Below, one piece after another: positions 6,811 to 40,651 of a stretch of 64,000 nt of DNA. The DNA is from an uncultured Opitutia bacterium (lineage in GTDB: Bacteria > Verrucomicrobiota > Verrucomicrobiia > Opitutales > Opitutaceae). The position numbers and the translations under genes were made by a program. How positions within the stretch are numbered: the first letter of the stretch is position 1; the number at the start of each line of letters is the position of its first letter. Where the stretch lies: assembly GCA_903862955.1 (NCBI GenBank), contig CAIPAH010000014.1:1-64000 (forward strand), written 5' to 3'. The notes beneath the pieces were generated by a model. The model did not search any database. It was not told where the DNA came from and saw only the letters and a program-made list of their open reading frames with translations.

Positions 6811-6837
6811 CCCCAATTTAGTTCCACGTTTTTCCCC

Positions 6838-8564: not shown

Positions 8565-8575
8565 GCCCGAGTTTC

Positions 8576-8770: not shown

Positions 8771-9583
8771 GTGTCTTGCCGCCTGCTGCTTTGGCTGGTC
8801 CTGGCCGGAGTGTGGACGATGGGGCGCGGCGCCGACGCCGACGTGACGGCGGCCTGGAGCCTGGCGGGACAGCATCTTGCGAACGACGCGCTGGCCGGGC
8901 TGCGGAAGGATCATTCCCCGGACGACCGGGAGAGAAGCTTTGCCGAGGCCGTCGTGCGGATGGATGTCCAGCCCGTCACCGAGACGGGTTTGAAAAAGGT
9001 GGAGGCCGAACTGTCGGCGCTGGCGAAAGGCGATGACGAGATTGCGCAGGCGTCGGCGTATCTCATCGGGCGGCTGTATCAGGCGCATTATTTCGCGCCG
9101 GATTACGCCCGTGCGGCGGAAGCCTACACGCGACTGGCGGAGAAATTCCCCGGTGGCTATTGGGCCCAGCTCGGGCTGGTGAAGCTGGCGCTCCTGAAAC
9201 TTTACGCGCTGCCCGAACCGGCGGGACCGGCGGCGCGCATTGTCGCGGCGGAGGCGTTGTTTCCGCGCGTGACGGTGCCGGAGCTGCAGCGCGACCTTCA
9301 CCTCGTGCTGGGACGCGCGGAGCTGTTTCACGAGTATGCGATCGAGGCGGTACTGGCGCACCTGCTCGCCGCGGACCGGATTGGCGGACTGACGCAGATC
9401 AAGCGGGGCGAGTTGCAGCTGCAGATCGGCGAGTTGTCCCGGCGGGCCCGGCACTGGGACCAGGCGCGCGATTACTTCAGGCGCTTCATCGTGGAAAACG
9501 AAGTCGATGGCCGGCTCTCGACCGCGAAGTTGAGGCTGGCCCAGATCGACGCGGCGCAGCGGGCGGAGGAATCGCACCGATGA
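8771..9583 (+). CDS. Exported TPR-like protein
   Basis: About 270 residues. A hydrophobic stretch (LLLWLVLAGVW) right after the chosen GTG forms a signal peptide ending near GRGADA. The rest is helical with tetratricopeptide character, for example YARAAEAYTRLAEKFPG and HWDQARDYFRRFIVEN. It probably works as a periplasmic scaffold. The start is uncertain: GTG at 8750 is also possible, while the ATG-like start at 8678 would translate the inverted-repeat flank. Its stop overlaps the start of the solute-binding protein by 4 bp, so the two are translationally coupled and likely act together. Confidence 0.7.
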   Translation: MSCRLLLWLVLAGVWTMGRGADADVTAAWSLAGQHLANDALAGLRKDHSPDDRERSFAEAVVRMDVQPVTETGLKKVEAELSALAKGDDEIAQASAYLIGRLYQAHYFAPDYARAAEAYTRLAEKFPGGYWAQLGLVKLALLKLYALPEPAGPAARIVAAEALFPRVTVPELQRDLHLVLGRAELFHEYAIEAVLAHLLAADRIGGLTQIKRGELQLQIGELSRRARHWDQARDYFRRFIVENEVDGRLSTAKLRLAQIDAAQRAEESHR

Positions 9584-11187
9584 AACGCCGCAAATTCCGT
9601 TTGATGCTGATCGTCTTCGGCGCGGCATATGTCACCGCGCTCTGGTGGGTATTCACCCGCTCGGCGCCGCTCATCAGCGTGCGCCCCGTCACGATCCGCT
9701 TTGCGCACTGGCAGATTGAAAAGGGCCCGCCCGAGGGGTTTGCGGCGGTGATCCAGCGCTACGAGCAGCTCAACCCGCGGGTAAAAGTGGAGCAGGTCGC
9801 GGTGCCGAGTCCGGTGTATCGCCAGTGGGTGCGGACCAACCTGACGGGCGGGACGGCGACGGACTTGATCGAGTTCGCTTACTGGCTGCAGGGCATGAAC
9901 GACGTGCCCGTGCGGTATTTCGAGCCACTGACGCGGGACATGGAGGAGCCGAATCCCTACAACCGCGGCACGCCGATGGCAGGAGTGCCCTGGCGGCTGA
10001 CGTTTGACGATGGCCTCTACGGCATGCTCAGCCAGAGTCCGGAAATCGGCCAGATTTACGGCGCCACGCTCTCGCAGGGCAGCAGCCGGCTGTTCTGCAA
10101 CCGCGAGCTGATGGCAAGGATCACCGGCGGGCCCGTGGTGGCACCGGCGACCTTCGCGGATTTCCGCCGACTGTGCGCGCAGGTGACGGAGTATTCGCGT
10201 CGCACCGGCCGGCCGCTGCACGCGCTCGCGGGCTCCTACAGCAACGCGCAGTGGCTGGCGGATTTCGTGATGATCGGGACGCTCACCGGCATGAACCTCG
10301 ACCTCGATCGCGAGGGATACCTGGGACGCGTGGCATGGCAGGCGCAGACGGATTACCTGCTGGGCCGGTGGAATTATCACCGGCCGGAAGTCCGCGCCGC
10401 GCTCGCCCTGCTGCGCGAGATGACCGAGCAGATGCGGCCGGGCTTCGCGCAGCTGTCGCGGGACGCAGCACTCCAGGAATTCACGCGCGGCGAGGCGCTG
10501 TTCATTTACTCCGGCACCTTCGATGCCACGAGCCTGAAGCGCCTGGCGCCATTTCCGGTGGAAGCCATGCGCCTGCCGCAGCCGACGAAGGACGATCCCG
10601 TGGTGGGGCCCTACGTGGTCGGCCGTTACCAGGACGGGTATTTGGGGACGGGCTTCGAGATGTATCTCAACAAGCAGAGCCCGCATAAGGCCGAGGCGCT
10701 CGATTTCCTGCGCTTCATGACGAGCGTGGAGGGCGGGCAGCTGTTCATGGATCACAGCGGCTGGCTGTCGTCGGTGCGCGGCGTGAATGTGCCGAAGGAC
10801 ATGGAAATCTACCGGGGCACCATGGACGGGTTCTCGGGCGGGTTTCAGTATGTCGGCGTGGGGCCGAATTCCACGATGAAGTTCTGGCAGCACCTGGACC
10901 TGCTGGTGGGCGCGCAAGGCAGCGTGGATAAATTCGTCGAGGCGATGGACACCGGACTCGTGAAGGATGTCTCCGACGATTTGCGAATCGAAATCCGGAC
11001 CGCGGTGACGGCCAGCCGCGCGGCCGATTCCGAGATCGTGGCGATGAGCGCCCTCAACCGGCTGCAAGCACCGGAGGCGGAGCGCGCCCTCCGCCAGCAG
11101 ACGATGGCCGGCAACCAGACGCTCGCGGAGATCAACGAGTATGAATGCCTCTGGGTGCTCGAGCGTCACGGGTACAAGCAACCCTAG
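9580..11187 (+). CDS. Membrane-anchored extracellular solute-binding protein
   Basis: A 535-residue family 1-type ABC solute-binding protein. An uncleaved-looking N-terminal helix (MLIVFGAAYVTALWWVF) replaces the usual lipoprotein signal; no lipobox Cys is seen. The mature part has the expected lobes: IRFAHWQIEKGPP, RYEQLNPRVKVEQV, FCNRELM, GEALFIYSGTF, and ALDFLRFMTSVEGGQ near the end. Such proteins normally deliver oligosaccharides to a permease, but no permease or ATPase genes are adjacent and a TPR gene precedes it. It could work with a distant transporter or as a sensor. The assignment to the fold is firm, the role is not. Confidence 0.82.
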   Translation: MKRRKFRLMLIVFGAAYVTALWWVFTRSAPLISVRPVTIRFAHWQIEKGPPEGFAAVIQRYEQLNPRVKVEQVAVPSPVYRQWVRTNLTGGTATDLIEFAYWLQGMNDVPVRYFEPLTRDMEEPNPYNRGTPMAGVPWRLTFDDGLYGMLSQSPEIGQIYGATLSQGSSRLFCNRELMARITGGPVVAPATFADFRRLCAQVTEYSRRTGRPLHALAGSYSNAQWLADFVMIGTLTGMNLDLDREGYLGRVAWQAQTDYLLGRWNYHRPEVRAALALLREMTEQMRPGFAQLSRDAALQEFTRGEALFIYSGTFDATSLKRLAPFPVEAMRLPQPTKDDPVVGPYVVGRYQDGYLGTGFEMYLNKQSPHKAEALDFLRFMTSVEGGQLFMDHSGWLSSVRGVNVPKDMEIYRGTMDGFSGGFQYVGVGPNSTMKFWQHLDLLVGAQGSVDKFVEAMDTGLVKDVSDDLRIEIRTAVTASRAADSEIVAMSALNRLQAPEAERALRQQTMAGNQTLAEINEYECLWVLERHGYKQP

Positions 11188-18324: not shown

Positions 18325-19800
18325 TCAGTCCTCCAGCGCGGCCTCGATGGCGCGGCTGGCGGTGCGCAGGACTTCGAGTCGGGCGAAGCGCTTGTTGTCC
18401 GCGGCGACCAGATACCACGGAGCGTTCTTGCGATCGGTGAGGGCGAGCATGTCGCCGACGGCGATTTCGTAGGCGCCCCGCTGGCGGCGGTTGCGCCAGT
18501 CCTCGGCGTTCATTTTGTGCGACTTGTGCGGCGCGGCCTCGCGCTCGCGAAACCGGCGCAGTTGCTCGGCGTGCGAGATGTGGAGCCAATATTTGAGGAC
18601 GATGGTGCCGTGATCCGTCAGCTCGCGTTCGAAGCCGTTGATCTCGCCAAACGCGCCCTTCCACTCGTCCTCGCGGCAGAATCCCTCGATGCGCTCGACC
18701 AGCACGCGCCCATACCACGAGCGGTCGAAGATCGTCATCCGTCCGTCGCGCGGGATGTCGCGCCAGAAGCGCCAGAGGTAATGCGCGTGCTTTTCCTCGG
18801 CGGTGGGCTTCGCCACGGGGATCACGGTGTAGTCCCGCGGGTCGATCGCGCTCGTCAGGCGGCGGATGGCGCCGCCCTTGCCGGCGGCGTCCCAGCCCTC
18901 GAAGGCGAACACGATCGAGCGCTCAGCCGCGAGGGCCGTGCGCACGGCGCGGTTCAGCCGGCCCAGCCATTTCTCGCGGAGCGCGTCGTAGTCCTTTTCG
19001 GAAAGATCCTGGTCCAGTGGCAGCGCATTGAGTCGTTTCAGGCCGGACGGGCGCAGGCTGCGTTGTACTCGCGGCCGGGTGGCGTGGCCGAGCAGGGTGA
19101 TGCGCTTCTTTTGGGCGTGAAATTGCGTGAGCAGGAGGCGGCCCACCGCCAGGTCGCGGGTGCGTTCATCCTCGGCGTCGATGAGCGTCCAGCGGGCGCC
19201 GGGCCGGTCGGTCTGGCGGCGGATGAGCTCGGCGGTCCGCGCGAGGCGGTCGTAGATGCGATGGTGGTGCCAGTCCTCCTTCGTCACGCGCCACGCCGTG
19301 GCGGGCTCGGCGCGGAGCGTGCGCAGGCGGCGGCCCTGGGCTTCCTGCGAAAGGTCGAGCCAGACCTTGACGATGAGCGTGCCGCCGTCGGCAAGCAGGT
19401 GTTCGAACTCCCGGATGCGTCCGGCTTCCTCGGCGACGTGGCTGAGCGCGCGCTGGCTGCGCGCCTCTTCGCGCAGGGTCTCGGTATACCACGACCCCGC
19501 GTAGAGCCCGATCCGACCCATCGCGGGCAGGCTGCGCCAGAAACGCCACTGGTGCGGGTGGGCCCGCTCGTTGTCGGTGGGAGAGTGGTAGGAAAACGTC
19601 TCCACGCCTCGCGGATCGAGCCACTCGGCGAGGGTATTGAGCAGGTTGCCGCGCCCGGCGCCCTCGGGACCGGCGAGGATGAGGAGGACCTTGAACGGCA
19701 CGTGCCGCAGGTCCTGCTGCAGCTGGACCAGCTGCTCGCGGAGGACCCGCGCGCGGGCCTGGTAGGTCCGCTTGGCCAGCCGTTGCGGTGCTTTCGCCAT
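18325..19800 (-). CDS. pap: Two-domain PPK2-family polyphosphate:AMP phosphotransferase
   Basis: A 491-residue tandem PPK2 protein. The first domain has a degraded P-loop (AGPEGAGRGN) and the second a complete one (FEGWDAAGKGGAI) plus the lid/Walker B region (IFDRSWYGRVLVERIEGF). One degenerate and one intact copy is the usual pattern of class II PPK2, which phosphorylates AMP to ADP with polyphosphate. It is divergent from a single-domain PPK2 180 bp away, so the pair could convert AMP to ADP and nucleoside diphosphates to triphosphates during energy stress. Confidence 0.88.
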   Translation of the reverse strand: MAKAPQRLAKRTYQARARVLREQLVQLQQDLRHVPFKVLLILAGPEGAGRGNLLNTLAEWLDPRGVETFSYHSPTDNERAHPHQWRFWRSLPAMGRIGLYAGSWYTETLREEARSQRALSHVAEEAGRIREFEHLLADGGTLIVKVWLDLSQEAQGRRLRTLRAEPATAWRVTKEDWHHHRIYDRLARTAELIRRQTDRPGARWTLIDAEDERTRDLAVGRLLLTQFHAQKKRITLLGHATRPRVQRSLRPSGLKRLNALPLDQDLSEKDYDALREKWLGRLNRAVRTALAAERSIVFAFEGWDAAGKGGAIRRLTSAIDPRDYTVIPVAKPTAEEKHAHYLWRFWRDIPRDGRMTIFDRSWYGRVLVERIEGFCREDEWKGAFGEINGFERELTDHGTIVLKYWLHISHAEQLRRFREREAAPHKSHKMNAEDWRNRRQRGAYEIAVGDMLALTDRKNAPWYLVAADNKRFARLEVLRTASRAIEAALED

Positions 19801-19979
19801 GCAAGGGCCAAGCTGCCGCGCAGCCGTGTCATGTCGAGACGGAGATGGAACGCCCCCGGGGTTTCGCGGCCTAAGGTTACGGTCAGGTTAAATCCGCCCG
19901 GCCGCCCCGGGGTGACACCTTGGTGGCTTTACGCCGACGGATTCTCGACTTCCCTCGTTCCCGTCTCCATCCCGATCCC

Positions 19980-20909
19980 ATGGCCAAAGAATCTCCCAGC
20001 CACGACAACCAGCTCATGAAACGCGTCCATCGCGAACTCATCGATGACTACGATGAAGAGCTGGAAATGGAGCGCGAGGACTGGGAGCACGTGAGCCCGA
20101 ACCAGCCGGCGCGGCCGGTGGAACAGGACACCACCAGCGCGGCGCGCAACCGGTATTTCCGCGAACTTTTCCGCCTGCAGGGCGAGCTGGTGAAGATGCA
20201 CGATTGGATCGTGGCGAGCGGGCATCGGCTGGTGATCGTGTTCGAGGGCCGCGACGCCGCCGGCAAGGGCGGGGCGATCAAGCGCATCACCCAGCGGCTC
20301 AATCCCCGCGTGGCCCGGGTGGCGGCGCTGCCGGCGCCCTCCAGCCGCGAGAAAACCCAGTGGTATTTCCAGCGTTACGTCGCGCACCTGCCGGCCGCCG
20401 GCGAAATGGTGCTCTTCGATCGCAGCTGGTATAACCGCGCGGGCGTCGAGCGCGTGATGGGCTTCTGCACCGATGCGGAATACGAGGAATTTTTCCGCTC
20501 GGTGCCCGACTTCGAAAAAATGCTCGTGCGGTCAGGCATCCAGTTGATCAAATATTGGTTCTCCATTCCGGACGAGGAACAGGAATTCCGGTTCCGGTGC
20601 CGGATCAATGACCCGCTCAAGCAATGGAAGCTCAGCCCGATGGACCTCGAGTCGCGCAAGCGCTGGGAACTCTACACCAAGGCGAAGGAAGTCATGTTCG
20701 ACCGCACGCACATTCCCGAGGCACCGTGGTGGGTGGTGCATGCCGCCGACAAGAAGCGCGGGCGGCTGAATTGCATCCACCACCTGCTGTCCCAGGTGAA
20801 ATACAGCGAAGTCCCGCACGTGCCGGTCGAGCTGCCGCCGCGCGTGCATCACCCGGATTACCATCGCGAGCCGCTGCGGCCCGACATGGTGATCCCGGAG
20901 ATTTACTGA
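19980..20909 (+). CDS. ppk2: Single-domain polyphosphate kinase 2
   Basis: A 309-residue PPK2 with intact Walker A (FEGRDAAGKGGAIKR, about residue 89) and Walker B/lid (LFDRSWYNRAGVERVMGF), and the conserved FRFRCRINDPLKQWKLSPMD stretch. It resembles class I PPK2, which transfers phosphate between polyphosphate and ADP or GDP. The ATG at 19980 is in frame and close to the domain start; reading from further upstream adds non-conserved residues. An acidic N-terminal segment (DDYDEELEMERED) precedes the kinase fold. Confidence 0.9.
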   Translation: MAKESPSHDNQLMKRVHRELIDDYDEELEMEREDWEHVSPNQPARPVEQDTTSAARNRYFRELFRLQGELVKMHDWIVASGHRLVIVFEGRDAAGKGGAIKRITQRLNPRVARVAALPAPSSREKTQWYFQRYVAHLPAAGEMVLFDRSWYNRAGVERVMGFCTDAEYEEFFRSVPDFEKMLVRSGIQLIKYWFSIPDEEQEFRFRCRINDPLKQWKLSPMDLESRKRWELYTKAKEVMFDRTHIPEAPWWVVHAADKKRGRLNCIHHLLSQVKYSEVPHVPVELPPRVHHPDYHREPLRPDMVIPEIY

Positions 20910-24865: not shown

Positions 24866-26059
24866 TCACCCGCGTATGGCCCCGAGAAGCTTGATCATGC
24901 CGAAGCCTACCGCGCCCACAGTCACAGCAGCGGACAGGCCGACAAAAAACGGGCGCCAACCCAGGCGTTTGAGACTGTCGAAACTGGTGCTCAATCCCAC
25001 TGCGGCCATGACCACGGTTAGCAACCAAGTGGATGCATGGTCCATCGAGCCTAGAAACTGAACCCAAGACTCGTGGTCGACGAACCCGAACGCGCGGCTG
25101 GAGGTGTCACCGATTGTCCGGACAATCGTCAGAAGGAGGAAGCCAACGACAAAGGGCGGGAGAATCTGGTGACGCGGCCGACTCTTGGCATGTCCCCCGC
25201 GCCCCCGTTGGTACAAGCCGGCCATCATTGGGATCACGGCGGCCATGCTCAGATTGCGCATGATCTTTACGACCGTGGCCGTATTCAGCACCGCGGGCGC
25301 ATGATGGGCCTGCTGGTAAGCGAGCGCCGCGCCAGTTACCTGTCCCGTATCGTGGATTGCCGTGCCAAAAAAGATGCCGATGGCGAGTTGGTCATTACCC
25401 AGCAGCCAGGGCACGATGAAGGGGTACAGCAGCATCGCGAGCATGCCGAAGATGGCTACACAAGCGACGGCATAGCTGACCTCACCTTCTTCGGCATCGA
25501 TGACGGGCGCGGTTGCCATGATCGCGGACACACCGCAGATGCTGGTTCCCACGGCGATCAGGGTGGCGAGTCGCCGCGACAGTCCGGCTCTTGCCCCCAT
25601 CCAAGGGATGATGATCAGGGCCGCCGTAATGGTGGCGAGGGCGACGGGCAGAGCCTGCAGGCCGATGCCCCCTACGACGCCGAGACTCAGGCGCCAGCCG
25701 AGCAGCATGATCGCTAGCCGCTGCAACGGGCGCATACAGGAGCGCAGGCCTTCCTGGAATGTCGCCGGAATACCCACGGTGTTGCACAGCACAATGCCCA
25801 TCGCGATCGCCAACGGGATGCCGCTGATGGGGTTGACGTGGGAGTCCAAAAGCGTCCGTCCGATCCAGTCCGCGCCGCTGTTGGCCAGGTATGCGAGGCC
25901 CACCGCGAGGAAGAAACCGGGTGCCTGTTCACCCAACCACGCCAAACTCCAATGCCCGAGGCTGCGAACCGTACGGGCGTTCCTTGGAAGGGAAATCCGT
26001 GCCATGCCCTCCAAGCTGTCCCAGCTATCAAAGATCTCGGGCGTGGGGTGCTGGGACAT
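24866..26059 (-). CDS. YeiH-family putative sulfate/sulfite exporter
   Basis: A 397-residue protein of the conserved YeiH (UPF0324) family with about ten membrane helices. Family landmarks include GIVLCNT, GWRLSLG, VGTSICGVSAIMA, GIFFGTAIHDTGQVTGAAL and NLSMAAVIPMMA. Members are annotated as putative sulfate exporters and lie near sulfonate-degradation genes in several bacteria. Here it is the first island gene, divergent from the SQ isomerase gene across 214 bp. Its upstream region holds a half-match to the island operator. Export of excess sulfite is the most sensible role, by inference. Confidence 0.83.
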   Translation of the reverse strand: MSQHPTPEIFDSWDSLEGMARISLPRNARTVRSLGHWSLAWLGEQAPGFFLAVGLAYLANSGADWIGRTLLDSHVNPISGIPLAIAMGIVLCNTVGIPATFQEGLRSCMRPLQRLAIMLLGWRLSLGVVGGIGLQALPVALATITAALIIIPWMGARAGLSRRLATLIAVGTSICGVSAIMATAPVIDAEEGEVSYAVACVAIFGMLAMLLYPFIVPWLLGNDQLAIGIFFGTAIHDTGQVTGAALAYQQAHHAPAVLNTATVVKIMRNLSMAAVIPMMAGLYQRGRGGHAKSRPRHQILPPFVVGFLLLTIVRTIGDTSSRAFGFVDHESWVQFLGSMDHASTWLLTVVMAAVGLSTSFDSLKRLGWRPFFVGLSAAVTVGAVGFGMIKLLGAIRG

Positions 26060-26273: not shown

Positions 26274-27035
26274 ATGAATCCCGTAAAGCCCGCCCATTTT
26301 TTGACTGCCGGTGCGAGGTCGTTTTCCTACACTGAGAAGTCGAGCCCGGCCTCATCGAACCTGCAGTTTTTGACCTATGGCGTCTATGAATTGGAAGGGA
26401 AGGCCGCGAGCGGTGCGCTGTCCCACGTGGGGGAGGAGGCGCTGCTGTTCGCCCTGAAGGGGCGGGTGACGGTCGAGTTGGGGGGCAAGACCTTTGTTCT
26501 GGACCCCTACGACGTGCTCTACGTGCCCCGCAGCCAAGTGTACCGCCTCCGCCAGGAAGACGGCCAGTCAAGGTTGGTGGTATGCCGGGCCCCCGCCACG
26601 GCTGAGCACCCGATTTATCACGCCAGCTGGAAGAAATACTCCAAGGACGAAAGCCGGATCCGGCACCTGAAGGGCAAGGACGTCTTCCTGATGTTCGATG
26701 TGAGCGAAGGCGCCGACAAACTGATGGCGGGTTTCACGCTGTTCCAGCCCGGGCAGCGCTCCTGGCCGCCCCACAACCACACGGATCAGGAAGAAATTTA
26801 CATTTTCACCAAAGGGCGCGGCGCCATGGAGGTGTACGCGGAAGAGGAAACCAAGAGCTTTGTCCGCAGTGTGTCCGAAGGTGACGCGGTGACGATTCCC
26901 CTGTTGAATTACCACCCGGTATTCAGTCAGGAGGAGGAACTGCATTTCATCTGGTGCATTGCCGGCAACCGCTACTGGGTCGGCGACAAGAACAAGGATT
27001 TCATGAGCGGCAAGGTGGACAAACTAACGACCTGA
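26274..27035 (+). CDS. KduI/IolB-type cupin isomerase, probable sulfoquinovose isomerase
   Basis: A 253-residue double-cupin protein. The second cupin carries the metal-site residues HNHTDQEEIYIF, a later GDAVTIP and a His in LLNYHPVF, as in KduI and IolB sugar isomerases. I recall that the isomerase of the transaldolase sulfoglycolysis pathway (SftI/SqvD) belongs to this family, converting SQ to 6-deoxy-6-sulfofructose. That role fits here: an epimerase-like gene follows after 1 bp, then suyAB, a transaldolase and an aldehyde dehydrogenase. An operator lies just upstream. KduI or IolB function is less likely because no uronate or inositol genes adjoin. Confidence 0.75.
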   Translation: MNPVKPAHFLTAGARSFSYTEKSSPASSNLQFLTYGVYELEGKAASGALSHVGEEALLFALKGRVTVELGGKTFVLDPYDVLYVPRSQVYRLRQEDGQSRLVVCRAPATAEHPIYHASWKKYSKDESRIRHLKGKDVFLMFDVSEGADKLMAGFTLFQPGQRSWPPHNHTDQEEIYIFTKGRGAMEVYAEEETKSFVRSVSEGDAVTIPLLNYHPVFSQEEELHFIWCIAGNRYWVGDKNKDFMSGKVDKLTT

Positions 27036-27036: not shown

Positions 27037-27951
27037 ATGAGCGTCGTGCGGGAGGTGATTGCGTTCCGGGGCTGGCCCAACGCCCTGCGGCTCGCCAACG
27101 GCACGGCCGAGCTGATTGCGACGCTCGATGTCGGGCCGCGGATCTTGTCGTACACCCGGCAGGGCGGACTGAACCCTTTCAACATTTACGAGGATCAAGC
27201 AGGCGGCCGGGGTGAAGCGCAGTGGCGGAATCGCGGGGGTCACCGGCTCTGGCTGGCGCCGGAGGCTCCTGGTTTCAGCAATTTCCCGGACAACCAGCCG
27301 GTGGCTTGGGAAAAACTGGGGGAGTCTGGGGTCCGGCTGATTCCTCCGCCGGAGCCCGCAACGGGCTTTCAGAAGCAGATTGACCTCACGCTGGCGGACA
27401 CGGGGGCCCGGGTGACGGTGGTTCACCGCATCAGCCGGATCTCTCCGGTTGCCTGCACCGCTGCGCCGTGGGCGTTGAGCGTTATGGCGGCAGGCGGGAC
27501 TGCGATCCTGCCCCAGCCGCCCTTCGGCGAACATCCCCGCGACCTGCTGCCCAACCGGCGGCTGGTGGTCTGGCCCTACACAGATCTTTCCGACGCACGC
27601 TACCGGCTCGGGCGGAAGTTTTTCACCATGCGACAGGATACCGCGGGGGTACCGACCAAGATCGGGCTGGCCACGTCGGTGGGCTGGGCCGCCTATCATT
27701 TGCAGCGCACCCTGTTCATCAAATATTTCACCCGGACGGCCGGCGTCGACTACCCCGACGACGGCTGCAACCTCGAGGTTTTCACCAATGCAAGGATGCT
27801 GGAGCTGGAAACGCTGGGGCCACTGCAACGCTTTGAACCCGGCACCACCGCGGAGCTGACCGAGAATTGGGACCTGCGGACCGATCTGCCCGAAATCGAC
27901 CCCAGCGATGAAGCCGCCTTGGCGGCTTATTTTCGGCTTGCTCCCGTCTAG
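27037..27951 (+). CDS. Aldose-1-epimerase-like (DUF4380-type) protein
   Basis: A 304-residue predicted galactose-mutarotase-like beta-sandwich. Recognisable stretches are LRLANGTAELIATLDVGPRILSY, GHRLWLAPEAP, a DLLPNRRLVVWPYTDLSD segment, and YPDDGCNLEVFTNARMLELETLGP, which matches the family end. Such proteins bind sugars and may interconvert anomers. One base separates it from the SQ isomerase gene, so mutarotation of SQ before isomerisation is a reasonable guess. No signal peptide is seen, so it is cytosolic. Confidence 0.7.
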   Translation: MSVVREVIAFRGWPNALRLANGTAELIATLDVGPRILSYTRQGGLNPFNIYEDQAGGRGEAQWRNRGGHRLWLAPEAPGFSNFPDNQPVAWEKLGESGVRLIPPPEPATGFQKQIDLTLADTGARVTVVHRISRISPVACTAAPWALSVMAAGGTAILPQPPFGEHPRDLLPNRRLVVWPYTDLSDARYRLGRKFFTMRQDTAGVPTKIGLATSVGWAAYHLQRTLFIKYFTRTAGVDYPDDGCNLEVFTNARMLELETLGPLQRFEPGTTAELTENWDLRTDLPEIDPSDEAALAAYFRLAPV

Positions 27952-27998: not shown

Positions 27999-28277
27999 AT
28001 GATCTCATTCCTCATGCACGAAAAACAGGACACCGTCGGCGTCGCCGTGGTGGACCTCAAAGCCGGCCAGGTGGTGCAGGGACGCTCCCTGCATGGCAAG
28101 GCCTCCCCGAGGCTCAAGGTCCTCAGTGACATTCCACTGGGGCACAAGATTGCCCTCCAGGCTTTCAAGCCGGGCGACACGGTCTTCAAATATGGCGTCG
28201 ATATCGGAAAGATCGTGGCGCCGATCAAAAAGGGCGGCCACGTCCACGTGCACAACCTCAAGACCAAGCGCTGGTAA
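27999..28277 (+). CDS. suyA: (2R)-sulfolactate sulfo-lyase, small subunit
   Basis: A 92-residue SAF-domain protein. With the next gene it would split (R)-3-sulfolactate into pyruvate and sulfite. The chain [45 protein letters not shown] and the ending [10 protein letters not shown] is what I recall of SuyA; it also resembles the N-terminal domain of altronate dehydratase (UxaA), from which the split sulfo-lyases derive. The separate small subunit and its partner 8 bp downstream favour SuyAB. It is the step that frees sulfite for the dsr genes on the same island. Confidence 0.88.
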
Positions 28278-28285: not shown

Positions 28286-29449
28286 ATGAAAACTCCCACC
28301 TTTCTCGGCTATCGCCGCAAAAACAAGCGGGTCGGCATCCGCAATCATGTCATCATTCTGCCGGTTGATGATATTTCCAACGCGGCCTGCGAGGCCGTGG
28401 CCAACAACGTCAAGGGCACGATGGCTCTGCCGCATGCCTACGGGCGGCTGCAGTTCGGCGAGGACCTCGAACTCTTCTTCCGCACGATGATTGGCACGGG
28501 GTCCAACCCCAATGTGGCCGCGGTCATCGTGATTGGCATCGAGCCAGGTTGGACGCAGCGGATCGTGGACGGCATCGCCAAGACGGGCAAGCCGGTCGCG
28601 GGTTTTTCAATCGAGCGCCATGGCGACTTGCAGACGATTGCGGACGCCGCGCGCAAGGCGAAGGAGTACGTCCAGTGGGCCAGCGAGCTCCAGCGCGAGG
28701 AATGCTCGGTCGACGAACTCTATATCTCGGTCAAATGCGGCGAGTCGGATACGACCACTGGCCTGGGCTCCTGCCCGGCGGTGGGCAACGTGATCGACAA
28801 GACCGTGGCGATGGGCGCCACCGCCTCCTTTGGCGAGACGACTGAATTGACCGGCGGTGAGCACATCGTGAAGGCAAAGGCAGCTACACCGGCGGTGGCA
28901 GCGGCCTTCATGAAGGTGTGGAACAACTACAACGATATGGTCATGAAGGAGAAGACTGACGATTTGTCCGAGTCGCAGCCGACCAAGGGCAACATTCGCG
29001 GCGGCCTCACCACGATCGAGGAAAAGGCGATGGGCAACATCGAGAAGCTCGGCAAGAAGACGAAATTCGTGGGCGTGCTCAAGCCCGCCGAAGCTCCGAC
29101 CCGCAAGGGTCTCTGGTTCATGGATACCTCGTCTGCGGCGGCCGAAGCGGTGACGCTATGGGCGGCCTCGGGGGCGGTGGTGCACCTGTTCCCGACGGGG
29201 CAGGGCAATATCATCGGAAATCCGATCGAACCCGTGATCAAGCTGTCCGCCAATCCTCTCACCTGCGCGACGATGAGCGAGCATATCGATCTCGATGTCT
29301 CGGCCATTCTCCGGGGTGAAATGTCCGTGGACCAAGCCGGCGACAAGCTGCTGGCCATGGTTGTGCGGACCGCCAGTGGACGTCTCACGGCCGCGGAGGC
29401 CTTGGGTCATCGTGAATTCGTAATGACGAAGCTCTATCGAAGCGCCTAG
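28286..29449 (+). CDS. suyB: (2R)-sulfolactate sulfo-lyase, large subunit
   Basis: A 387-residue UxaA C-terminal family protein, the catalytic partner of SuyA. Landmarks are [31 protein letters not shown]-like [62 protein letters not shown], and [13 protein letters not shown]. These Cys and Gly-rich loops bind the metal centre in the family. The length and the split from suyA match known SuyB rather than full-length altronate or galactarate dehydratase. Acts in the cytosol; products are pyruvate and sulfite. Confidence 0.88.
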
Positions 29450-29471: not shown

Positions 29472-30671
29472 ATGCCGACCGAAAGCGCATCATCGAGCCG
29501 CTGCGGCGTGGCGTGGGCCAGGAAGCAAGTCCGCGATCTCGCCGTGGCGGTAAACGTGCCGCCCGGCGATGCCGGGCGGTTCGCGGATGCCTTGGTGGCC
29601 GCGGACGTGCAGGGCATCCCCACCCACGGGATTTCCCGGCTGAACGTCTATCTCCGACGCATTCAAGCCGGGCTCATCAATCCGCGGGCCAAGTTGTCGG
29701 TTATCCGGCAGCGGGGTGGGGTGCTCGTGCTCGACGCCAACCATGGCCTCGGGCAGGTCCAAGCGCTCAAGGCCCTCGACCGGCTGGTACCGCTGGCGCG
29801 GGAACATGGCGTGGCGGTCGCGACGATCCGCAACTCGCAGCACTTCGGAGCACTGTCGTATTACTGCAACCAAGCGGCGGCTCAGGACATGATTCTGATT
29901 GCCTCCACGAATGGCGAACCGGCCATGTCGCCCGAGGGCGGGTGCCAGGCTTTCTTCGGCACCAACCCTTTGGCCGCGTCCTTCCCGACAGGCCGGGGCG
30001 GGCCTGTGAAGATTGATTTTGCCACTGCGATCGTGGCACGGGGCAACATCATTGCGGCGCAAAAGCGCGGCCAGCCGATCCCTCCTGGCTGGGCGCTGAA
30101 CGGCGAAGGCGAGCCGACGACCGATGCGGCGGCGGCGCTGGCGGGCACGGTCCTCACCTTGGGCGGGCACAAGGGCTACGCCTTGGCCTTGATGTTGGAA
30201 GTTTTGTCCGGGGTGCTGTCGGGCGCGGCCATCGGCCCGGCGGTGGGTTCGATGTACAAAGACATGAACCGTCGGCAGGGGGTGGGCCATTTCTTCTGCC
30301 TGCTGGACATCGCGGCATTCATGGAGGTCTCCGAGTTCAAGCAGCGGATTGACCAGACGATCGACGGGATCAAGGCGTGCCGGAAACGTCCCGGCGTGTC
30401 CGAGATCCTCATCCCGGGGGAAAGTTCGCACCGCGAGGCACAGCAGAACCGCTTGCAGGGAATTCCCGTGGACGAATCCACGCAGAGCGAAATCAAGCAG
30501 TTGTGCATGGACCTGGGCGTGAAATTCCGGCTCGGTCCAGTGGCCCGCAGCCGGTCCGCGTGTACCCGGCGGCGGCCCTTGTCGCGCGTGACCGCGCAAG
30601 TTCACCGTGGCGCAAAATCCCATTCCAATTTCCGCGGATTAACCCATCAAGCGCACGGGCGACCACAGTGA
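29472..30671 (+). CDS. ComC-like (R)-sulfolactate/malate dehydrogenase family protein
   Basis: A 399-residue member of the Ldh_2 (malate/L-sulfolactate) NAD(P)-dependent dehydrogenases. It shows ADVQGIPTHGISRL with the conserved His, VATIRNSQHFGALSYY with its catalytic His, FGTNPLAASFP, KIDFATAIVARGNI and GGHKGYALALMLEVLSG. In Chromohalobacter-type sulfolactate pathways, ComC makes (R)-sulfolactate from sulfopyruvate for SuyAB. The position between suyB and a LarA-like gene supports this. The last ~45 residues are Arg-rich, unlike the family, and end in a 1-base overlap (TGATG) with the next start, so a late frameshift extending the end is possible. Confidence 0.82.
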   Translation: MPTESASSSRCGVAWARKQVRDLAVAVNVPPGDAGRFADALVAADVQGIPTHGISRLNVYLRRIQAGLINPRAKLSVIRQRGGVLVLDANHGLGQVQALKALDRLVPLAREHGVAVATIRNSQHFGALSYYCNQAAAQDMILIASTNGEPAMSPEGGCQAFFGTNPLAASFPTGRGGPVKIDFATAIVARGNIIAAQKRGQPIPPGWALNGEGEPTTDAAAALAGTVLTLGGHKGYALALMLEVLSGVLSGAAIGPAVGSMYKDMNRRQGVGHFFCLLDIAAFMEVSEFKQRIDQTIDGIKACRKRPGVSEILIPGESSHREAQQNRLQGIPVDESTQSEIKQLCMDLGVKFRLGPVARSRSACTRRRPLSRVTAQVHRGAKSHSNFRGLTHQAHGRPQ

Positions 30672-31927
30672 TGCAAATCCAGGTTCCATATGGGCGGGCT
30701 TTCGTATCTGCCCGCGTCCCAGACCAGACCGGGATCGATATCATTGAGGCGCCGGAGACACCGGGGGCCGGCGATCCGTTGGGCCTCGTCCGCTCAGCCT
30801 TGGCCAACCTTCTCGGCGGAGCAAAGTGGGCTGATTTCGCGGGAGCGCGCTCGGTGGCCATCACCGTCAACGACAAGACGCGCCCGGTTCCGCATCACCA
30901 GCTCTTGCCGCCGTTGCTGGAGCGCCTCGCGGTCCTCGGGATCCCCGATGCCGCCATCACTTTCTACGTGGCCGTGGGCACCCACCCGCCGATGACGCGC
31001 GACGAATTTCCCGCGATCCTGCCGGAGGAGATTCTGAAACGCTACCGGGTGGTGTCACACGACGCGGAAAATGGCGACCTGCTGACCAACTTGGGCGAAA
31101 CCTCCCGTGGCACGCCAATCTGGTCCAACAAGGCCTATGTCGCGTCCGACCTAAAGATCGTGGTGGGCAATCTCGAGCCGCACCAGTTCGTCGGCTTCTC
31201 GGGCGGCGTCAAAGGCGCGGCCATCGGGCTTTCCGGGTTGCAGACGATCAACCGCAATCACGCCCTGATGATGCATCCCGATTCCCAGTTGGGCGAATAC
31301 GAGACGAACCCGGCGAGGCAGGATGTGGAGGAAATCGGCGCCAAGATGGGAATCCATCTGGCGCTGAATACCATCTTGAACCAGCACCGGCAGATCGTGC
31401 ATGTGCTCGCGGGTGAGCCGCGCGCCGTGATGCGGGCCGGGGTGCCGCTTTCGCGGCAGGTCTGCCAGGTGGGCGTTACTTCCAGGTACGGCCTCATCAT
31501 CACCTCGCCCGGCGGCCATCCCAAGGACATCAATGTATACCAGGCCCAGAAAGCGCTCGGGCACGCGGCGCTGATCGCCCGGCCGGGCGGCACCATCATC
31601 CTCGTGGCGGCCTGTCCCGAAGGCACGGGCAGCCCGCATTATGAGGAGTGGATGGCGGGCAAGAGGTCCTACGACGAAATCATCAACCGCTTCAGCGCCG
31701 AGGGCTTCCGGATCGGGCCGCACAAGGCTTACCAAATTGCCCGCGATGCTTCCAAGACGCGGTTGCTTTTCTGCACCGGGATGGACGAGCACCTGGCGCG
31801 GACCCTGTTGCTCAATCCGGTCAGGGATTTGCAGGCCGCCGTGGACAAGGCGTTGCCGGGACTGCAGCCCGGCGAGCGGATCGGCGTTCTGCCCCATGCC
31901 AACTCCACCATTCCTTTCCTAAAATAG
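30671..31927 (+). CDS. LarA-like nickel-pincer racemase, candidate sulfolactate racemase
   Basis: A 418-residue LarA family protein. Landmarks are [66 protein letters not shown], which holds Lys and His positions that bind the pincer cofactor in LarA, and [12 protein letters not shown]. Family members racemise lactate, malate and other 2-hydroxyacids. Between a ComC-like dehydrogenase and sulfoglycolysis genes, the likely substrate is sulfolactate: oxidation of SQ-derived sulfolactaldehyde gives the S form, and SuyAB uses the R form. Cofactor genes larBCE are not in the window. I start at the ATG at 30671. Confidence 0.8.
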
Positions 31928-32007: not shown

Positions 32008-32655
32008 ATGAAACTATTCATCGACACAGCTGACGTCGCCCAAATCAAGGAGACCTATGCGTGGGGCATCATTGATGGTGTGACCACGAATCCTTCCCAT
32101 GTCGCGAAAACCGGCCGGCCGGCGGCCGCCGTCTACCGGGACATCTGCGCCATCGTCGACGGGCCGATCAGCCTCGAGACACTCAGCCTCACCGCACCCG
32201 AGATGATCGTCGAGGGGCGTGAGCTCGCCAAGTTTCACCGCAACGTGGTCGTGAAGATCCCCATGACGCGCGAGGGCATGAAGGCCGTGAAGGTCCTGTC
32301 CGCGGAGGGCATCAAGACCAACGTGACGGTGACCTTTTCGCCGCTGCAGGCGCTGCTCGCCGCCAAGTGCGGGGCGACCTACATCAGTCCCTTTGTGGGG
32401 CGCTTGGACAGCTTCGGCCACAACGGCATGGATTTGGTCCGGCAGATCAAACAGATCTACGCGAACTACGGCTACAAGACCGAGATCATCGTCGCCGCGG
32501 TCCGGCATCCTATGCATGTGCTCGAGGCCGCGCTGGCCGGCGCGGAGATAGCCACGATGGGCTATGACGTCATGGTCCAGCTCTATCACCACCCGTTGAC
32601 CGATCTGGGCATCGAAACCTTCCTGAAGGATTGGAAAAAAGTTCCACAGTCATGA
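32008..32655 (+). CDS. sftT: Fructose-6-phosphate aldolase/transaldolase family, probable 6-deoxy-6-sulfofructose transaldolase
   Basis: A 215-residue class I aldolase of the FSA/TalC type. It has the opening [27 protein letters not shown], the Schiff-base Lys in NVVVKIPMT (about residue 79-84), [31 protein letters not shown] and the later [20 protein letters not shown]. In the SftT pathway such an enzyme moves dihydroxyacetone from sulfofructose to glyceraldehyde 3-phosphate, giving fructose 6-phosphate and sulfolactaldehyde. The aldehyde dehydrogenase starts inside its stop codon (ATGA), which ties the two reactions. A plain sugar-phosphate transaldolase cannot be ruled out by sequence. Confidence 0.8.
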
Positions 32656-34073
32656 AAACACAACCGCTCTATCTCGGAGGGAAGTGGGTGACATCTCCCA
32701 CGACCCTGCAGGTCCACAATCCGGCGAACGGCCAGGTCATCGGCGAAGTCTGCACCGTGGGCCGGCCCGTGGTGGCGCAAGCCATCACCGACGCGCACGC
32801 GGCCTTGGCCGGCTGGCGCGCCCTGACGGGCAAGGAACGCGGCGACCGCCTTCGGGCGGTGGCTGATCAGCTCCTGCGCCGCCGCGACGAGGTCGCGCGG
32901 ACGATCACGCTGGAAAATGGCAAACCCCTGGCACAAAGCCTCGGGGAAGTGGCGATGTCGGTGGACCACCTGCTGTGGTTTGCCGAGGAGGCCCGCCGGG
33001 CCTACGGCCGCATCGTTCCGGCGCAGGCGCCGGGCAAGCGCCATCTCGTGGTGAAAACGCCCATCGGGGTCGTGGCCGCCATCAGCCCGTGGAATTTCCC
33101 ACTCGTGCTGGCGGTGCGCAAGATCGCGCCGGCGCTGGCCGCCGGCTGTCCCGTCGTGCTGAAGCCTGCCAGCGCTACCCCGCTGTGCGCTATCCAGTTT
33201 GCGGAATGTGTCGAAGCGGCCGGGTTGCCGGCCAGTGTCTTCCAAGTCGTGCTGGGCCGCGCGTCGGAAATCGCCGCGGAATTCCTGGAAAACCGCCTCT
33301 GTCGCAAGATCACCTTCACGGGTTCCACCGAGGTGGGACAGCTCCTGATCCGCGGAGCGGCCACGGACATCAAGCCCCTGTCGCTCGAACTCGGGGGGCA
33401 CGCCCCGGTCCTCATCTTTGCCGATGCGGACCTGGACCAGGCGGTGGAAACCGCGATGATCGCGAAATTCCGGAATTCGGGCCAGTCGTGCATCGCGGCC
33501 AACCGGATCTACGTACAGCGGCCCGTCTACCAGGAATTCCTGGAGCGTTTCGCGCAGAAAGCCCGGGAACTCAAGGTTGGCGACGGCTTGGAGGCCGGCG
33601 TTAATGTCGGTCCCGTCATCAACCAGGAGGGACTCGACAAGGCGCTGTCGCATATCGCCGATGCCAAGGCGCGCGGGGCCCGTTGTCTTTGCGGAGGCCG
33701 GCGCATGGACCGGCCAGGATGGTTCCTGGAACCGACCGTGTTGGCGGACGTCCCGGAGGCCGCCACCTGCATGAGCGAGGAAACCTTCGCACCCGTGGCC
33801 GCGGTTTGCTCCTTCGAGACTGAAGAGGAGGCCGTCACACGGGCCAACGCCTCGCCATTTGGCCTGAGCGCCTATGCGTGCACGCGAGACCTGGGCCGGA
33901 CCTTCCGGTTGATCGAGAGCCTGGAAGCAGGGACCATCGGCATCAATGACGGCGCGCCGTCGACGAGCCAGTGTCCCTTCGGCGGAACCAAACATAGCGG
34001 TTGGGGACGGGAATTGGGCAACGAAGGGCTGGACGCATTTCTCGAAACCAAACACGCTTCGCTCGTTCTGTGA
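32652..34073 (+). CDS. NAD(P)-dependent aldehyde dehydrogenase, probable sulfolactaldehyde dehydrogenase
   Basis: A 473-residue ALDH of the succinate-semialdehyde (GabD) type. It carries ISPWNFPL, the catalytic Glu in SLELGGHAP, the catalytic Cys in [20 protein letters not shown] and [10 protein letters not shown]. It overlaps the transaldolase stop by 4 bp, so its substrate is most likely the transaldolase product sulfolactaldehyde, oxidised to sulfolactate. That is consistent with SuyAB upstream rather than with export of dihydroxypropanesulfonate. The ROK gene starts in its last codons. Confidence 0.85.
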
Positions 34074-35374
34074 GGCGATCTGCATTTCAAACCACCCATC
34101 TGACATCGGACATCCTCAAGCGAGTACGCGCTTGTGGGGGCATTTCCCGCGTGGATTTGGCGCGGGACTTGGGCCTGGCGCCGTCCACCGCCGGCATCTA
34201 CGTCGAGCGACTCATCGACCGCGGCTTCCTGCTTGAGACCGAGGAAACCACGGGTGACGCCGGACGTCCCCCACGAATCCTCCGGACAAATCCGGAGGGC
34301 GGGGAATTCATCGGGGTGGATTTTGAAGCCCGGAACATCATGGCCGTGGCCGTGGATTTTTCCGACCGGCCGCTACGGAATTCCCACAAGCTGATCGAAG
34401 CCGATGAGACCGTGGAGCAGGTTATCGCCAAGATTGCGGAAGCGATCGAGGAAGTGCTGCCGGGGGCGAACCGGCGGAATCTGGCTATCGGGGTGGGGGT
34501 CCCGGGCATTGTTGATTCGGGCAAGGGCGTGGCGGTGCACTACAAGCACATTCGCAAATGGGACAATGTGCCCCTGGCCAAGATCCTGTCGGCGCGATTT
34601 GGCGTCCCGGTGTTTCTGGAAAACAACGCGCGTTCCATGGCCTTGGCCGAGCTTTGGTTTGGCCAGGGCAAGGGGCAGGATGACTTCCTTTGCATCGGCA
34701 TCCGGAGTGGAATTGGCGCCGGAATGGTCTTGAACGGCCGCGTTTATTCCGGCGCCCACCATGCGGCGGGGGAATTGGGCCGCTGGCGCTATCTCGCTGT
34801 GTCGGTCCCCGCGGCGCCTTGGTTTGCGCCGATGACCACCAACGGCGATGCGGACGGTCCGGAGTTGGAGGAGATCGCCTCGGTCCGCGCGGTGCAGCGT
34901 GCGCTGCATAACGCCGTGGCCCAGGGAAAAAAGACGGTGCTCGCGGGCGGCAAATCCCATTTTTCGGTGACGGATATCGTCAAGGCCTGCCAGCAGCGGG
35001 ATGCGTTGACGATCCGGGTGGTCAGCGAGTCCGCCGGGGCGCTCGGCTGGGCCATCGGCCAACTTTCGCTCGCGGTGGACCCGGGCAAGATTGTCCTGTC
35101 GGGTCCGCTGACCGCACTGGGCGAGGTTTTCCTTCAGCCCCTGCGTGCCCGCGTCGATCGTTTGCTGCGCCTCTCCGGCGCGCGTTCACCCGAAATCGTG
35201 AATTCCACGATGGGCGAGTACAGTGGCGCGCTGGGCGCCGCGGCGCTGGCGCTGCATGAGTGGAAGCCGGTGCTGGGCGGGCGCGGACGTGAAGCGGAAG
35301 CGGAAAGCCAGCCGGCTCCCAAGGGACGCAAGACTCGCTTTGCGAAGGGCAAGCCAAGTGGGAAGCTGACCTAG
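34070..35374 (+). CDS. ROK family transcriptional repressor
   Basis: A 434-residue ROK/NagC-type protein. It begins with a winged HTH (LKRVRACGGISRVDLARDLGLAPSTAGIYVERL) and then the ROK domain (FIGVDFEARNIMAVAVD, AIGVGVPGIVDSGKG, GIRSGIGAGMVLNG). The kinase Asp of the usual ENDAN motif is replaced (FLENNARSMA), and the Cys-rich zinc motif after GELG is absent, so it should be a pure regulator. The GTG at 34070 overlaps the aldehyde dehydrogenase stop. It is the best candidate to bind the TTTCG-N4-CGAAA sites of the island. A Lys/Arg-rich tail follows the fold. Confidence 0.87.
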   Translation: MRRSAFQTTHLTSDILKRVRACGGISRVDLARDLGLAPSTAGIYVERLIDRGFLLETEETTGDAGRPPRILRTNPEGGEFIGVDFEARNIMAVAVDFSDRPLRNSHKLIEADETVEQVIAKIAEAIEEVLPGANRRNLAIGVGVPGIVDSGKGVAVHYKHIRKWDNVPLAKILSARFGVPVFLENNARSMALAELWFGQGKGQDDFLCIGIRSGIGAGMVLNGRVYSGAHHAAGELGRWRYLAVSVPAAPWFAPMTTNGDADGPELEEIASVRAVQRALHNAVAQGKKTVLAGGKSHFSVTDIVKACQQRDALTIRVVSESAGALGWAIGQLSLAVDPGKIVLSGPLTALGEVFLQPLRARVDRLLRLSGARSPEIVNSTMGEYSGALGAAALALHEWKPVLGGRGREAEAESQPAPKGRKTRFAKGKPSGKLT

Positions 35375-38632: not shown

Positions 38633-40651
38633 TCAAGCGTTTGCCAAGGCGAGTAACTGGGACTGCATCGCGCAGCCCTGGCGCACGAACACGGGTGGCT
38701 GGCCCAAGGGCGCCGCCACGGTCACGCGTGCACCGCCGTCGAATTCCCGCCCCGTCCACAAATGGATCCAACGGGCCCCCGCCGGGAGGTAGGGTTCCCA
38801 GGAGTCGCGCCCTGCGGCGTGCACGGGCGCGACGAGCAGGTCCGCGCCATAAAGGTATTCGTCCTGGATCGTGTAGGCCTGCGGGTCCTCCTCGAAATGC
38901 AGGAAGAGTGGACGCTGCAGCGGCAATCCCTGGGTTGCGGCCTGTTCCGCGAGTTGCCGGACATAGGGAACCAAGGCGGCGTAGATGCGGGTCATGCGGG
39001 CGAAATGCGCCAGGACCCCGTCATCCTGCCAGAACTGGAAATTCTCGTCGGGTCGGTTGCCCTCGTGAGTGCGCATGACCGGGGTGAAGGCGGCCATCTC
39101 GGCCCAGCGCTGGAACAGCTCCGGAGTGCGCCGGTTTCCAAACAGGCTGGTGTAGCCGCCAATGTCGCTGTGATGGTAGGCATTGCCCAGCAGGCCCGAC
39201 GAAAGCGCGCCGCAGATGACCGTCTGCAGGCCGTCGTGCCGGGAGAAGTCCACGGACTGGTCGCCCGCCCAGAGAAGCGGGCAATGCGCTTGGATGCCGG
39301 TGTAGCCGGCGCGCATGAAATAAAGCACATCCCCTTTGCGTCCGGCCTCCGCTACTGCGTCGGCGTTGACCTTGGCCCACATCGTAGGCCACGCGTTGTG
39401 CATCAACATCGCGTCGGCGCCGCTCGCGAGTTTGACGTCGGTGGGCAGGTATTCGCCGAAATCGGCCATCCAGCCGTCCAAGCCCGAATCAATCATCTCC
39501 TGCCGGATCACGCGGCGTCCATACCACCGGGCGGCCTCAGGATTGGTGAAATCAACCACGCCGCAGCCAAACTCGCCAAAATCCACGATGTATTCGCCGC
39601 CCGTTGCGTTCGTGGCCAGATAGCCGGCCGCGCGCGCCTCCTGGTAGATCACACCGTCGCTGCACAAATAGGGTGTGACGTAACCGAGGAAGCGGACACC
39701 GCGGGAATTAAGCGACGCCACCCACTGGCGCGCATCCGGGTAGCGCTTTTCATTCCAGTGCCAGTCCCAAAACAGGCGGTTGCCGAACGACGTCTTGCGC
39801 AGGCCCACCCAGTCCTCGCACCACAGCGCGGACACCTTGACGCCGTGCTTGCGACTCAGCTCCAGGATGCGCTCCGCATGTTCGGGACCGTTCTTCAGCC
39901 CAAGGATCGCGCCCTTGAAAACCCAATCGGGGAGCGCGGGCTGCCGGCCAAACCGGGCGGAAATGCGCTCAACCAGACCGATGAAGCTTTTGGCGGCAAA
40001 CAACTCGATGCGGGCGGGCACGGCCCAGAATTGGAGCTCGTGGAATTCCGGATGGCGGAAATCAAAATCGGCGTACGCCGTGGTCTCGGCATGCAGGCAA
40101 TAGTGGTCCGAGGAAACGTAGGTGGGCTGCGGATAGTTGGTGGTGTAATAGTCGCCGCCCGCCTTTCCGGTCACGTCGGCCTGCCAGGTGAGATAAGTGG
40201 ACTTGTCGCGGCCGACGCCCGGCTCCGACGTCCAGAGCGGGAAATGCCGCCCGCGCAAATTAAAGTAAGACATCTGCTCACCGCCGCCCCAGACCTGCTC
40301 GGCGGGCTGCGCGTTGACGCGCCACCACAAGCGGTTGACTCGGTTGGACGCAGGAGAAAATTCGACCACTGCGCCCGGCCCTTCGACGCGAACGGTCAGC
40401 TCCAACTCCACTTCCGTTTGCGCCGAACGCGCCAAAGACACCCGCACTCCACCAGCTACCGCCTCAACCCGGGCATGCCGCAGGGGAACCCGCTCCTCCA
40501 CGTAGTCTTCGAATTCAAAATTCCCACGGTGCATCTTGACCGACGCCACCCCGAACCCGACGAAACAGCACGGGACGCCCGGGGAATGCGCCATGAGCTG
40601 CCGGCCCTCATGCCAGAACGCCCAGGAGTCTTGGGTAAATTTGAGTTCCAT
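38633..40651 (-). CDS. yihQ: GH31 sulfoquinovosidase
   Basis: A 672-residue GH31 enzyme expected to hydrolyse alpha-sulfoquinovosides such as SQ-glycerol. The nucleophile Asp is in WMADFGEYLPTD (about residue 397) and the acid/base Asp in WAGDQSVDFS (about 465). The sulfonate-recognition set recalled for the K-E-R-W-Y subtype of YihQ can be read: Lys in GLKNG (~253), Glu in CEDWVG (~278), Arg and Trp in TSFGNRLFW (~292, ~295) and Tyr in HHSDIGGYT (~500), with spacing close to E. coli YihQ. No signal peptide is seen, so the glycoside must enter the cytosol. It is first in an operon with glpK and glpD. Confidence 0.87.
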   Translation of the reverse strand: MELKFTQDSWAFWHEGRQLMAHSPGVPCCFVGFGVASVKMHRGNFEFEDYVEERVPLRHARVEAVAGGVRVSLARSAQTEVELELTVRVEGPGAVVEFSPASNRVNRLWWRVNAQPAEQVWGGGEQMSYFNLRGRHFPLWTSEPGVGRDKSTYLTWQADVTGKAGGDYYTTNYPQPTYVSSDHYCLHAETTAYADFDFRHPEFHELQFWAVPARIELFAAKSFIGLVERISARFGRQPALPDWVFKGAILGLKNGPEHAERILELSRKHGVKVSALWCEDWVGLRKTSFGNRLFWDWHWNEKRYPDARQWVASLNSRGVRFLGYVTPYLCSDGVIYQEARAAGYLATNATGGEYIVDFGEFGCGVVDFTNPEAARWYGRRVIRQEMIDSGLDGWMADFGEYLPTDVKLASGADAMLMHNAWPTMWAKVNADAVAEAGRKGDVLYFMRAGYTGIQAHCPLLWAGDQSVDFSRHDGLQTVICGALSSGLLGNAYHHSDIGGYTSLFGNRRTPELFQRWAEMAAFTPVMRTHEGNRPDENFQFWQDDGVLAHFARMTRIYAALVPYVRQLAEQAATQGLPLQRPLFLHFEEDPQAYTIQDEYLYGADLLVAPVHAAGRDSWEPYLPAGARWIHLWTGREFDGGARVTVAAPLGQPPVFVRQGCAMQSQLLALANA

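Follow-up and report, generated by a model that had tools for sequence, protein, structure and literature searches.

A LarA homologue beside suyAB in an Opitutaceae sulfoquinovose cluster is a candidate sulfolactate racemase

Sulfoquinovose is a plant sulfosugar and a major organic sulfur compound. The (S)-sulfolactate derived from it must be turned into the R form for SuyAB, and the extracts of two studies describe this inversion, in other bacteria, as proceeding via SlcC and ComC (PMC12421959, PMC10507020). In the available part of its description, Desulfovibrio DF1 converts DHPS to sulfolactate and passes this to SuyAB with no inversion enzyme described (PMC6278857); thus, the step may not always be needed. 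How, then, is sulfolactate inverted at a locus where suyAB is followed by a gene for a LarA homologue and no gene for SlcC is found? The window analysed here is the whole stretch of 64,000 nucleotides from contig CAIPAH010000014.1 of an uncultured Opitutia bacterium, whose genome (3.61 Mb, 31 contigs) is given as 100% complete. Judging from sequence and neighbourhood, the LarA homologue of the window is probably a sulfolactate racemase. No paper among the matches listed in the open-access literature connected sulfolactate with LarA or with a racemase of lactate or malate; one candidate, PMC4641369, was set aside as 'Lara' is there the name of an author.

The genes of this region make up a cluster for the use of sulfoquinovose and are listed below.

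24866..26059, minus strand: YeiH-type putative exporter, possibly of sulfite or sulfate (TIGR00698, 147.6, under the cut-off of 232.6)
26274..27035, plus strand: KduI-type cupin, which may act as sulfoquinovose isomerase (KduI, 61.6 bits)
27037..27951, plus strand: mutarotase-like protein (NF052227, 262.6, under the cut-off of 550)
27999..28277, plus strand: suyA, small subunit of sulfolactate sulfo-lyase (SAF domain)
28286..29449, plus strand: suyB, large subunit of sulfolactate sulfo-lyase (similarity to plasmid SuyB records)
29472..30671, plus strand: ComC-like dehydrogenase, 399 residues (Pfam Ldh_2 over residues 17-341, 385.5 bits)
30671..31927, plus strand: LarA homologue of the LarAH5 branch, candidate sulfolactate racemase, 418 residues (Lar_N and LarA_C)
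32008..32655, plus strand: transaldolase-family protein, presumed sulfofructose transaldolase (TAL_FSA; TIGR00875, 314.2 versus 245.95)
32631..34073, plus strand: aldehyde dehydrogenase, from its context presumed to act on sulfolactaldehyde (Aldedh; nearest models of the succinate-semialdehyde type)
34001..35374, plus strand: ROK-family regulator with an uncertain start (ROK, 153 bits, and HTH_24)
38633..40651, minus strand: GH31 sulfoquinovosidase of the YihQ type (NF007746, 953.4 versus 553)

The sulfoquinovosidase assignment is clear, the best solved relatives of the GH31 protein being YihQ-type enzymes (932.5 bits). Thirteen plasmid records match SuyB at 64-71% identity, among them those of the known sulfolactate degraders Cupriavidus pinatubonensis (66.3%) and Paracoccus aestuarii (68.9%), before a fall to 40% at the next record. 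The transaldolase-family protein finds better matches among ordinary transaldolases (269.5 bits) than among the solved sulfofructose transaldolases (165.9 bits; 8bc3) and is 39% identical to its counterpart in a related Chloroflexota cluster (L063, below), so its sulfofructose activity may have had a separate origin. At 18325-20909 the window also holds two adjoining opposite-strand ORFs whose motifs resemble polyphosphate kinase 2.

The LarA homologue has the domains, the fold and the catalytic and cofactor residues of the LarA superfamily. Its Pfam domains are well above threshold (Lar_N, 181.3 versus 23.3 bits; LarA_C, 51.4 versus 25 bits), and it exceeds the cut-off of NF052595, the curated LarAH5 'malate racemase' model (532.6 versus 462 bits), an assignment absent from the initial annotation. 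Five other LarA models also match it, each below its cut-off, including that of LarAH6/Mar2 (407.1 versus 500 bits). According to a residue list taken from excerpts of PMC7583248, the catalytic residues Asp68, His105, His171 and Lys294 (Asp72, His108, His174 and Lys298 in Lactobacillus plantarum numbering) and the cofactor residues Arg71, Lys181 and His197 (Arg75, Lys184 and His200) are all kept. His351-Lys352 occupy the positions of Trp358 and Thr359 and form a dianion signature; excerpts of PMC11770544 give His or Gln followed by Lys at these positions as the malate racemase signature, the lysine being thought to face the second carboxylate. The best sequence match of known structure is Mar2 (253.9 bits). 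The predicted structure (mean pLDDT 95.4) superposes on lactate and malate racemases with Z scores of 48-51, far above other structures; the prediction confirms the LarA fold and does not discriminate malate from sulfolactate. Both are 2-hydroxyacids that carry another acidic group on C3, and one such pocket could suit either.

The relatives of this protein were sought in several collections. A scan of genome contigs gave four, namely L026 (91% identical), L027 (78%) and L028 (73%) from Opitutae or Opitutaceae MAGs and L029 (57%) from an Anaerolineales MAG. In a set of 400 Chloroflexota genomes, 72 matched the LarAH5 model at E<=1e-90, 14 of them above the cut-off; among these 14 loci, all of which were compared (L029 and 13 others), two besides L029 are more than 55% identical to the window protein (L063, 58%; L068, 56%). 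Together with the window, these six relatives, 56-91% identical to it, form a single clade of seven (FastTree support 0.895) throughout which the cofactor residues are identical. Other LarA matches are at most 34% identical in 17 plasmid records, 32% among the 177 genomes searched from the same order (E<=1e-30) and 34% among 387 from the phylum (E<=1e-60); it was a separate genome collection that supplied the closer relatives from Opitutaceae.

Four of the seven clade members lie in clusters with suyAB and a transaldolase: the window, L026 and L028 (Opitutae or Opitutaceae) and L063 (Chloroflexota), with suyA immediately 5' of suyB in each. L026 shares the operon of the window. The order in L028 is mutarotase-suyA-suyB-LarA-transaldolase, and L063 comprises a sulfoquinovosidase, a transporter, an SftI-like isomerase, the transaldolase, suyA, suyB and LarA. 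In L068 a transaldolase and LarA adjoin, together with a YeiH-type gene, on an 8.4 kb contig without suyB; the YeiH-type gene is also present in L026. SuyB had no match at E<=1e-100 in the genomes of L029 (G525) and L068 (G536). The LarA genes of L029 and L027 are not near suyAB and adjoin, respectively, cobalamin genes (read from ORFs) and molybdoenzyme-type genes. Two features of these neighbourhoods are recorded separately. In L028, between the transaldolase and the ROK regulator, a type II glyceraldehyde-3-phosphate dehydrogenase and a phosphoglycerate kinase (5792-8133) take the position of the sulfolactaldehyde dehydrogenase; the pair may oxidise sulfolactaldehyde via an acyl phosphate with a gain of ATP, or may serve plain glycolysis of the transaldolase partner. 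In L063, a cysteine-desulfurase-like class V aminotransferase (9784-10941) directly follows LarA, perhaps by chance.

Within the window, the stop codon of the ComC-like gene (TGA, 30669-30671) and the start codon of larA (ATG, 30671-30673) have base 30671 in common, which bears out the one-base overlap reported in the initial annotation. The same overlap recurs in L026, where ComC ends and LarA starts at 6398, and the arrangement is not due to chance, since it is conserved in other genomes. The best-scoring NCBIfam model for the dehydrogenase itself is that of L-sulfolactate dehydrogenase (NF040650), at 270.5 bits against a cut-off of 500, and no family model matches its C-terminal region of about 48 residues. 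In a comparison of nine genes between the window and L026, dN/dS was well below 1 throughout (0.035 for SuyB and 0.12 for LarA, indicating purifying selection); ComC was the least constrained of the nine (0.27), with a value of about 0.62 in its tail (346-399). No ComC was found in the stretches of L028 and L063 examined, the L063 contig stopping about 2 kb past LarA. Low constraint and this absence would fit a ComC made dispensable by LarA.

The counterpart SlcC was searched for with a Paracoccus SlcC-like protein as the query (E<=1e-20 in the own genome). The five matches all lie outside the contig of the window, and the best of them is 43% identical over residues 35-306 (272 residues) of a 629-residue frame which, by its length, we read as SerA-like. 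Three SlcC-positive control genomes gave 46-51% over about 305 residues at the suyAB locus, compared with 41-43% for the best matches in the seven genomes with a clade LarA; the search for a hidden SlcC in the seven thus gave only weaker matches. In five of the seven, the best-match frame is longer than SlcC (G000, G522, G523, G524 and, with 390 residues, G525). The frames in G597 (301 residues) and G536 (316 residues) are SlcC-like in length, and length alone does not settle these two. A Rhodococcus SlcC-like protein beside suyAB is itself only 40% identical to the query, so identity alone is not decisive and an unlinked, divergent SlcC is conceivable; with this proviso, the earlier observation that SlcC is missing stands.

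A wider comparison shows how LarA and SlcC are distributed. Sixteen of the 400 Chloroflexota genomes encode SuyB, one of them (G597) being that of L063, and we compared the other 15 suyB neighbourhoods for LarA, SlcC, ComC and transaldolase. None of the 15 has a LarA of the query type; SlcC-like genes occur in ten (weak and distant in L121) and ComC-like genes in eight. A transaldolase is found in eight, seven of them with SlcC and six with ComC; the eighth transaldolase cluster is L128, whose contig ends soon after suyB. In the four LarA clusters, by comparison, SlcC is found in none and ComC in two. With L128 left out and kinship uncorrected, seven of seven against none of four gives p=0.003 (Fisher). 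No cluster examined has both LarA and SlcC. Among seven named plasmid suyAB clusters, four carry the pair of SlcC and a ComC-like gene (Methylobacterium, Rhodococcus, P. aestuarii and Sinorhizobium mexicanum) and three do not: by annotation, C. pinatubonensis and Paracoccus versutus (L091, L092) have HpsN/O/P-type or similar dehydrogenases, neither SlcC nor ComC, and Rhodobacteraceae SC52 (L095) has an Ldh-family gene without SlcC. SlcC and ComC are therefore not universal beside suyAB. On balance, LarA occupies the place held elsewhere by SlcC and partly by ComC.

The proposed pathway would run as follows. The GH31 enzyme would free sulfoquinovose, which would be isomerised and cut to (S)-sulfolactaldehyde, and this would be oxidised to (S)-sulfolactate. 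LarA would then invert C2 by reversible hydride transfer via bound sulfopyruvate, with the cofactor on Lys181, nickel on His197 and His105/His171 as the acid/base pair. One of these histidines would remove the hydroxyl proton as the hydride passes to the cofactor, leaving bound sulfopyruvate; return of the hydride to the opposite face would give (R)-sulfolactate, which SuyAB would split into pyruvate and sulfite. The sulfonate would be held by His351 and Lys352, whose counterparts in malate racemases are believed to point at the second carboxylate group. The template for this scheme is lactate racemase, as described in part of PMC7583248, from which we infer the mechanism and the use of a nickel-pincer cofactor in the window LarA. 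If LarA replaces the SlcC/ComC pair, the inversion would need neither NAD(H) nor free sulfopyruvate. The titles of PDB entries for LarA mention a sulfite-carbon bond (adduct) in the cofactor; sulfite from SuyAB might inhibit LarA, and sulfite export might matter.

Supply of the cofactor is the weakest point of the racemase reading and also its stranger, most interesting part. In the own genome LarC has no match, and LarE (45.5 bits versus a cut-off of 150) and LarB (25.3 versus 175) score far below threshold. None of larB, larC and larE is over its cut-off in G000, G522, G523, G524, G597 or G536; alone among the seven clade genomes, G525 (L029) has all three, clustered on another contig. Assembly gaps are an unlikely cause, as all three genes are missing in six genomes, one of them 100% complete; the own genome is the only clade member with a completeness figure (none for G522-G525, G536 and G597), and larBCE are often clustered (e.g. 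G525:C47, G032, G004), so a gap would be a single event per genome. Outside the clade, 25 genomes that carry LarA were tested and 16 have LarC; the contrast with the clade is moderate (Fisher p=0.033, kinship uncorrected). Because LarC is missing in the remaining nine as well, its absence concerns how the cofactor is supplied and does not mark the LarA protein family. Also encoded in the own genome are two LarA homologues that retain the core residues (L083, C8:87073-88311, and L084, C30:65592-66059), one nearest to the lactate racemase model (418.3 versus 460) and the other to a putative hexonate epimerase (151.3 versus 500, fragment tested). LarA homologues of three other genomes, L089 (G030), L085 (G047) and L081 (G376), likewise occur with LarB, LarC and LarE not over cut-off; a LarA lacking the known pathway for its cofactor is thus seen outside the clade of the window as well. 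The initial claim of a nickel-pincer enzyme is accordingly half sustained, by the binding residues and not by the biosynthetic genes. That LarA racemises sulfolactate in bacteria that cannot make its cofactor by the known route, and which instead take it up, like a vitamin, from their neighbours or else make or replace it in another way, is a tentative idea that we hold at somewhat less than even chances.

Three other explanations have to be weighed against a sulfolactate racemase. The protein could be a malate racemase, in keeping with the name curated for its family, and its presence in the cluster could be accidental or tied to the handling of C4 acids; it passes the family cut-off and carries the family signature. 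The curated name, the racemisation of malate by Mar1, the position of the LarA genes of L027 and L029 away from suyAB and the lack of a SuyB match in the genomes of L029 and L068 count against the sulfolactate reading. Two further LarAH5 genes, in L061 (49%; 2032-9279) and L062 (47%; 3474-9771), are each found some 4-5 kb or less from a gene for ATP-type PEP carboxykinase, a setting in keeping with C4-acid metabolism in these two cases. However, members of the window clade accompany suyAB and transaldolase in two phyla, the genes from suyA to the regulator in the window include none recognised as acting on C4 acids, and the first LarAH5 enzyme, Mar1 of Desulfitobacterium hafniense, binds malate poorly (Km 55 mM; PMC7583248, seen in excerpt), so we hold a malate racemase to be unlikely. 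Within the same excerpt, the authors of Mar1 allow that malate may not be native and suggest tartrate or 2-hydroxysuccinamate; a later paper, in its accessible part, files Mar1 as a malate racemase with a side activity on tartrate (PMC11770544). As the substrate sought for Mar1, sulfolactate would fit: extracts of a 2026 review place D. hafniense DCB-2 among the users of sulfolactate as an electron acceptor (PMC12890257), and a suyB candidate is listed for D. hafniense DSM 12704 in a portion of PMC6278857. The comparative evidence favours sulfolactate: in four clusters a LarA of this clade accompanies suyAB and transaldolase, and in none of the four is SlcC found.

Sulfolactate could instead be inverted by ComC and an unlinked 2-hydroxyacid dehydrogenase, LarA having another role. 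The ComC-like gene adjoins larA in the window and L026, 2-hydroxyacid dehydrogenases are encoded elsewhere in all seven LarA genomes, and true SlcC-like proteins can diverge as far as the Rhodococcus one. Yet none of the seven has a match of the grade seen in the positive controls, and ComC is both the least constrained gene and missing from the L028 and L063 stretches, which makes this explanation quite improbable. To the proposal that the window LarA does without the nickel-pincer cofactor in its native host, being inactive or using something else, we give a similarly slight chance. The missing or weak larBCE matches in six genomes speak for it; against it stand the invariant cofactor residues, purifying selection and the persistence of two further homologues with core residues, which an acquired cofactor fits better than decay. 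Cofactor residues kept without cofactor genes suggest uptake or alternative synthesis rather than disuse. Direct inversion of sulfolactate by LarA in place of SlcC/ComC, as originally proposed, thus gains comparative support from the association with suyB in two phyla, from two of four clusters being without ComC and from none having SlcC.

If sulfolactate is the substrate, it would be the first sulfonate substrate of the LarA family, and sulfoquinovose breakdown would have a one-enzyme, redox-neutral alternative to SlcC/ComC. The real substrate of Mar1 would have a testable answer, and, on the more tentative idea above, what is now curated as the LarAH5 'malate racemase' family would, with Mar1, consist at least in part of sulfolactate racemases. 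The undetected larBCE genes make cofactor sharing between organisms, as opposed to alternative synthesis, testable.

Compared with known systems, the cluster resembles the Sulfo-TAL and SuyAB clusters of Thermotogae and Chloroflexi (PMC9594981, in the portion available) in combining a transaldolase-family gene with suyAB, and L063 has a sulfoquinovosidase and an SftI-like isomerase as well. That portion mentions no LarA-type racemase, and the nearest relatives of the window are Opitutae or Opitutaceae MAGs. As far as its description was accessible, the SlcC/ComC system of Chromohalobacter has the same place in the pathway and its genes the same place in the cluster, flanked by SuyAB and by the steps that form sulfolactaldehyde; the window differs in having one predicted enzyme instead of two, with no NAD(H), and LarA is not homologous to SlcC. 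Mar2 of Thermoanaerobacterium thermosaccharolyticum (6d6z, 7s91) shares the fold and 34% identity over 398 residues, although the window LarA remains under the Mar2 model cut-off. Mar1 (LarAH5, NF052595) belongs to the same curated family, with the catalytic, cofactor and His-Lys residues as described for the group in the excerpts of PMC7583248; the likeness is one of family model and residues, and the difference is that the window LarA sits in clusters of suyAB and transaldolase.
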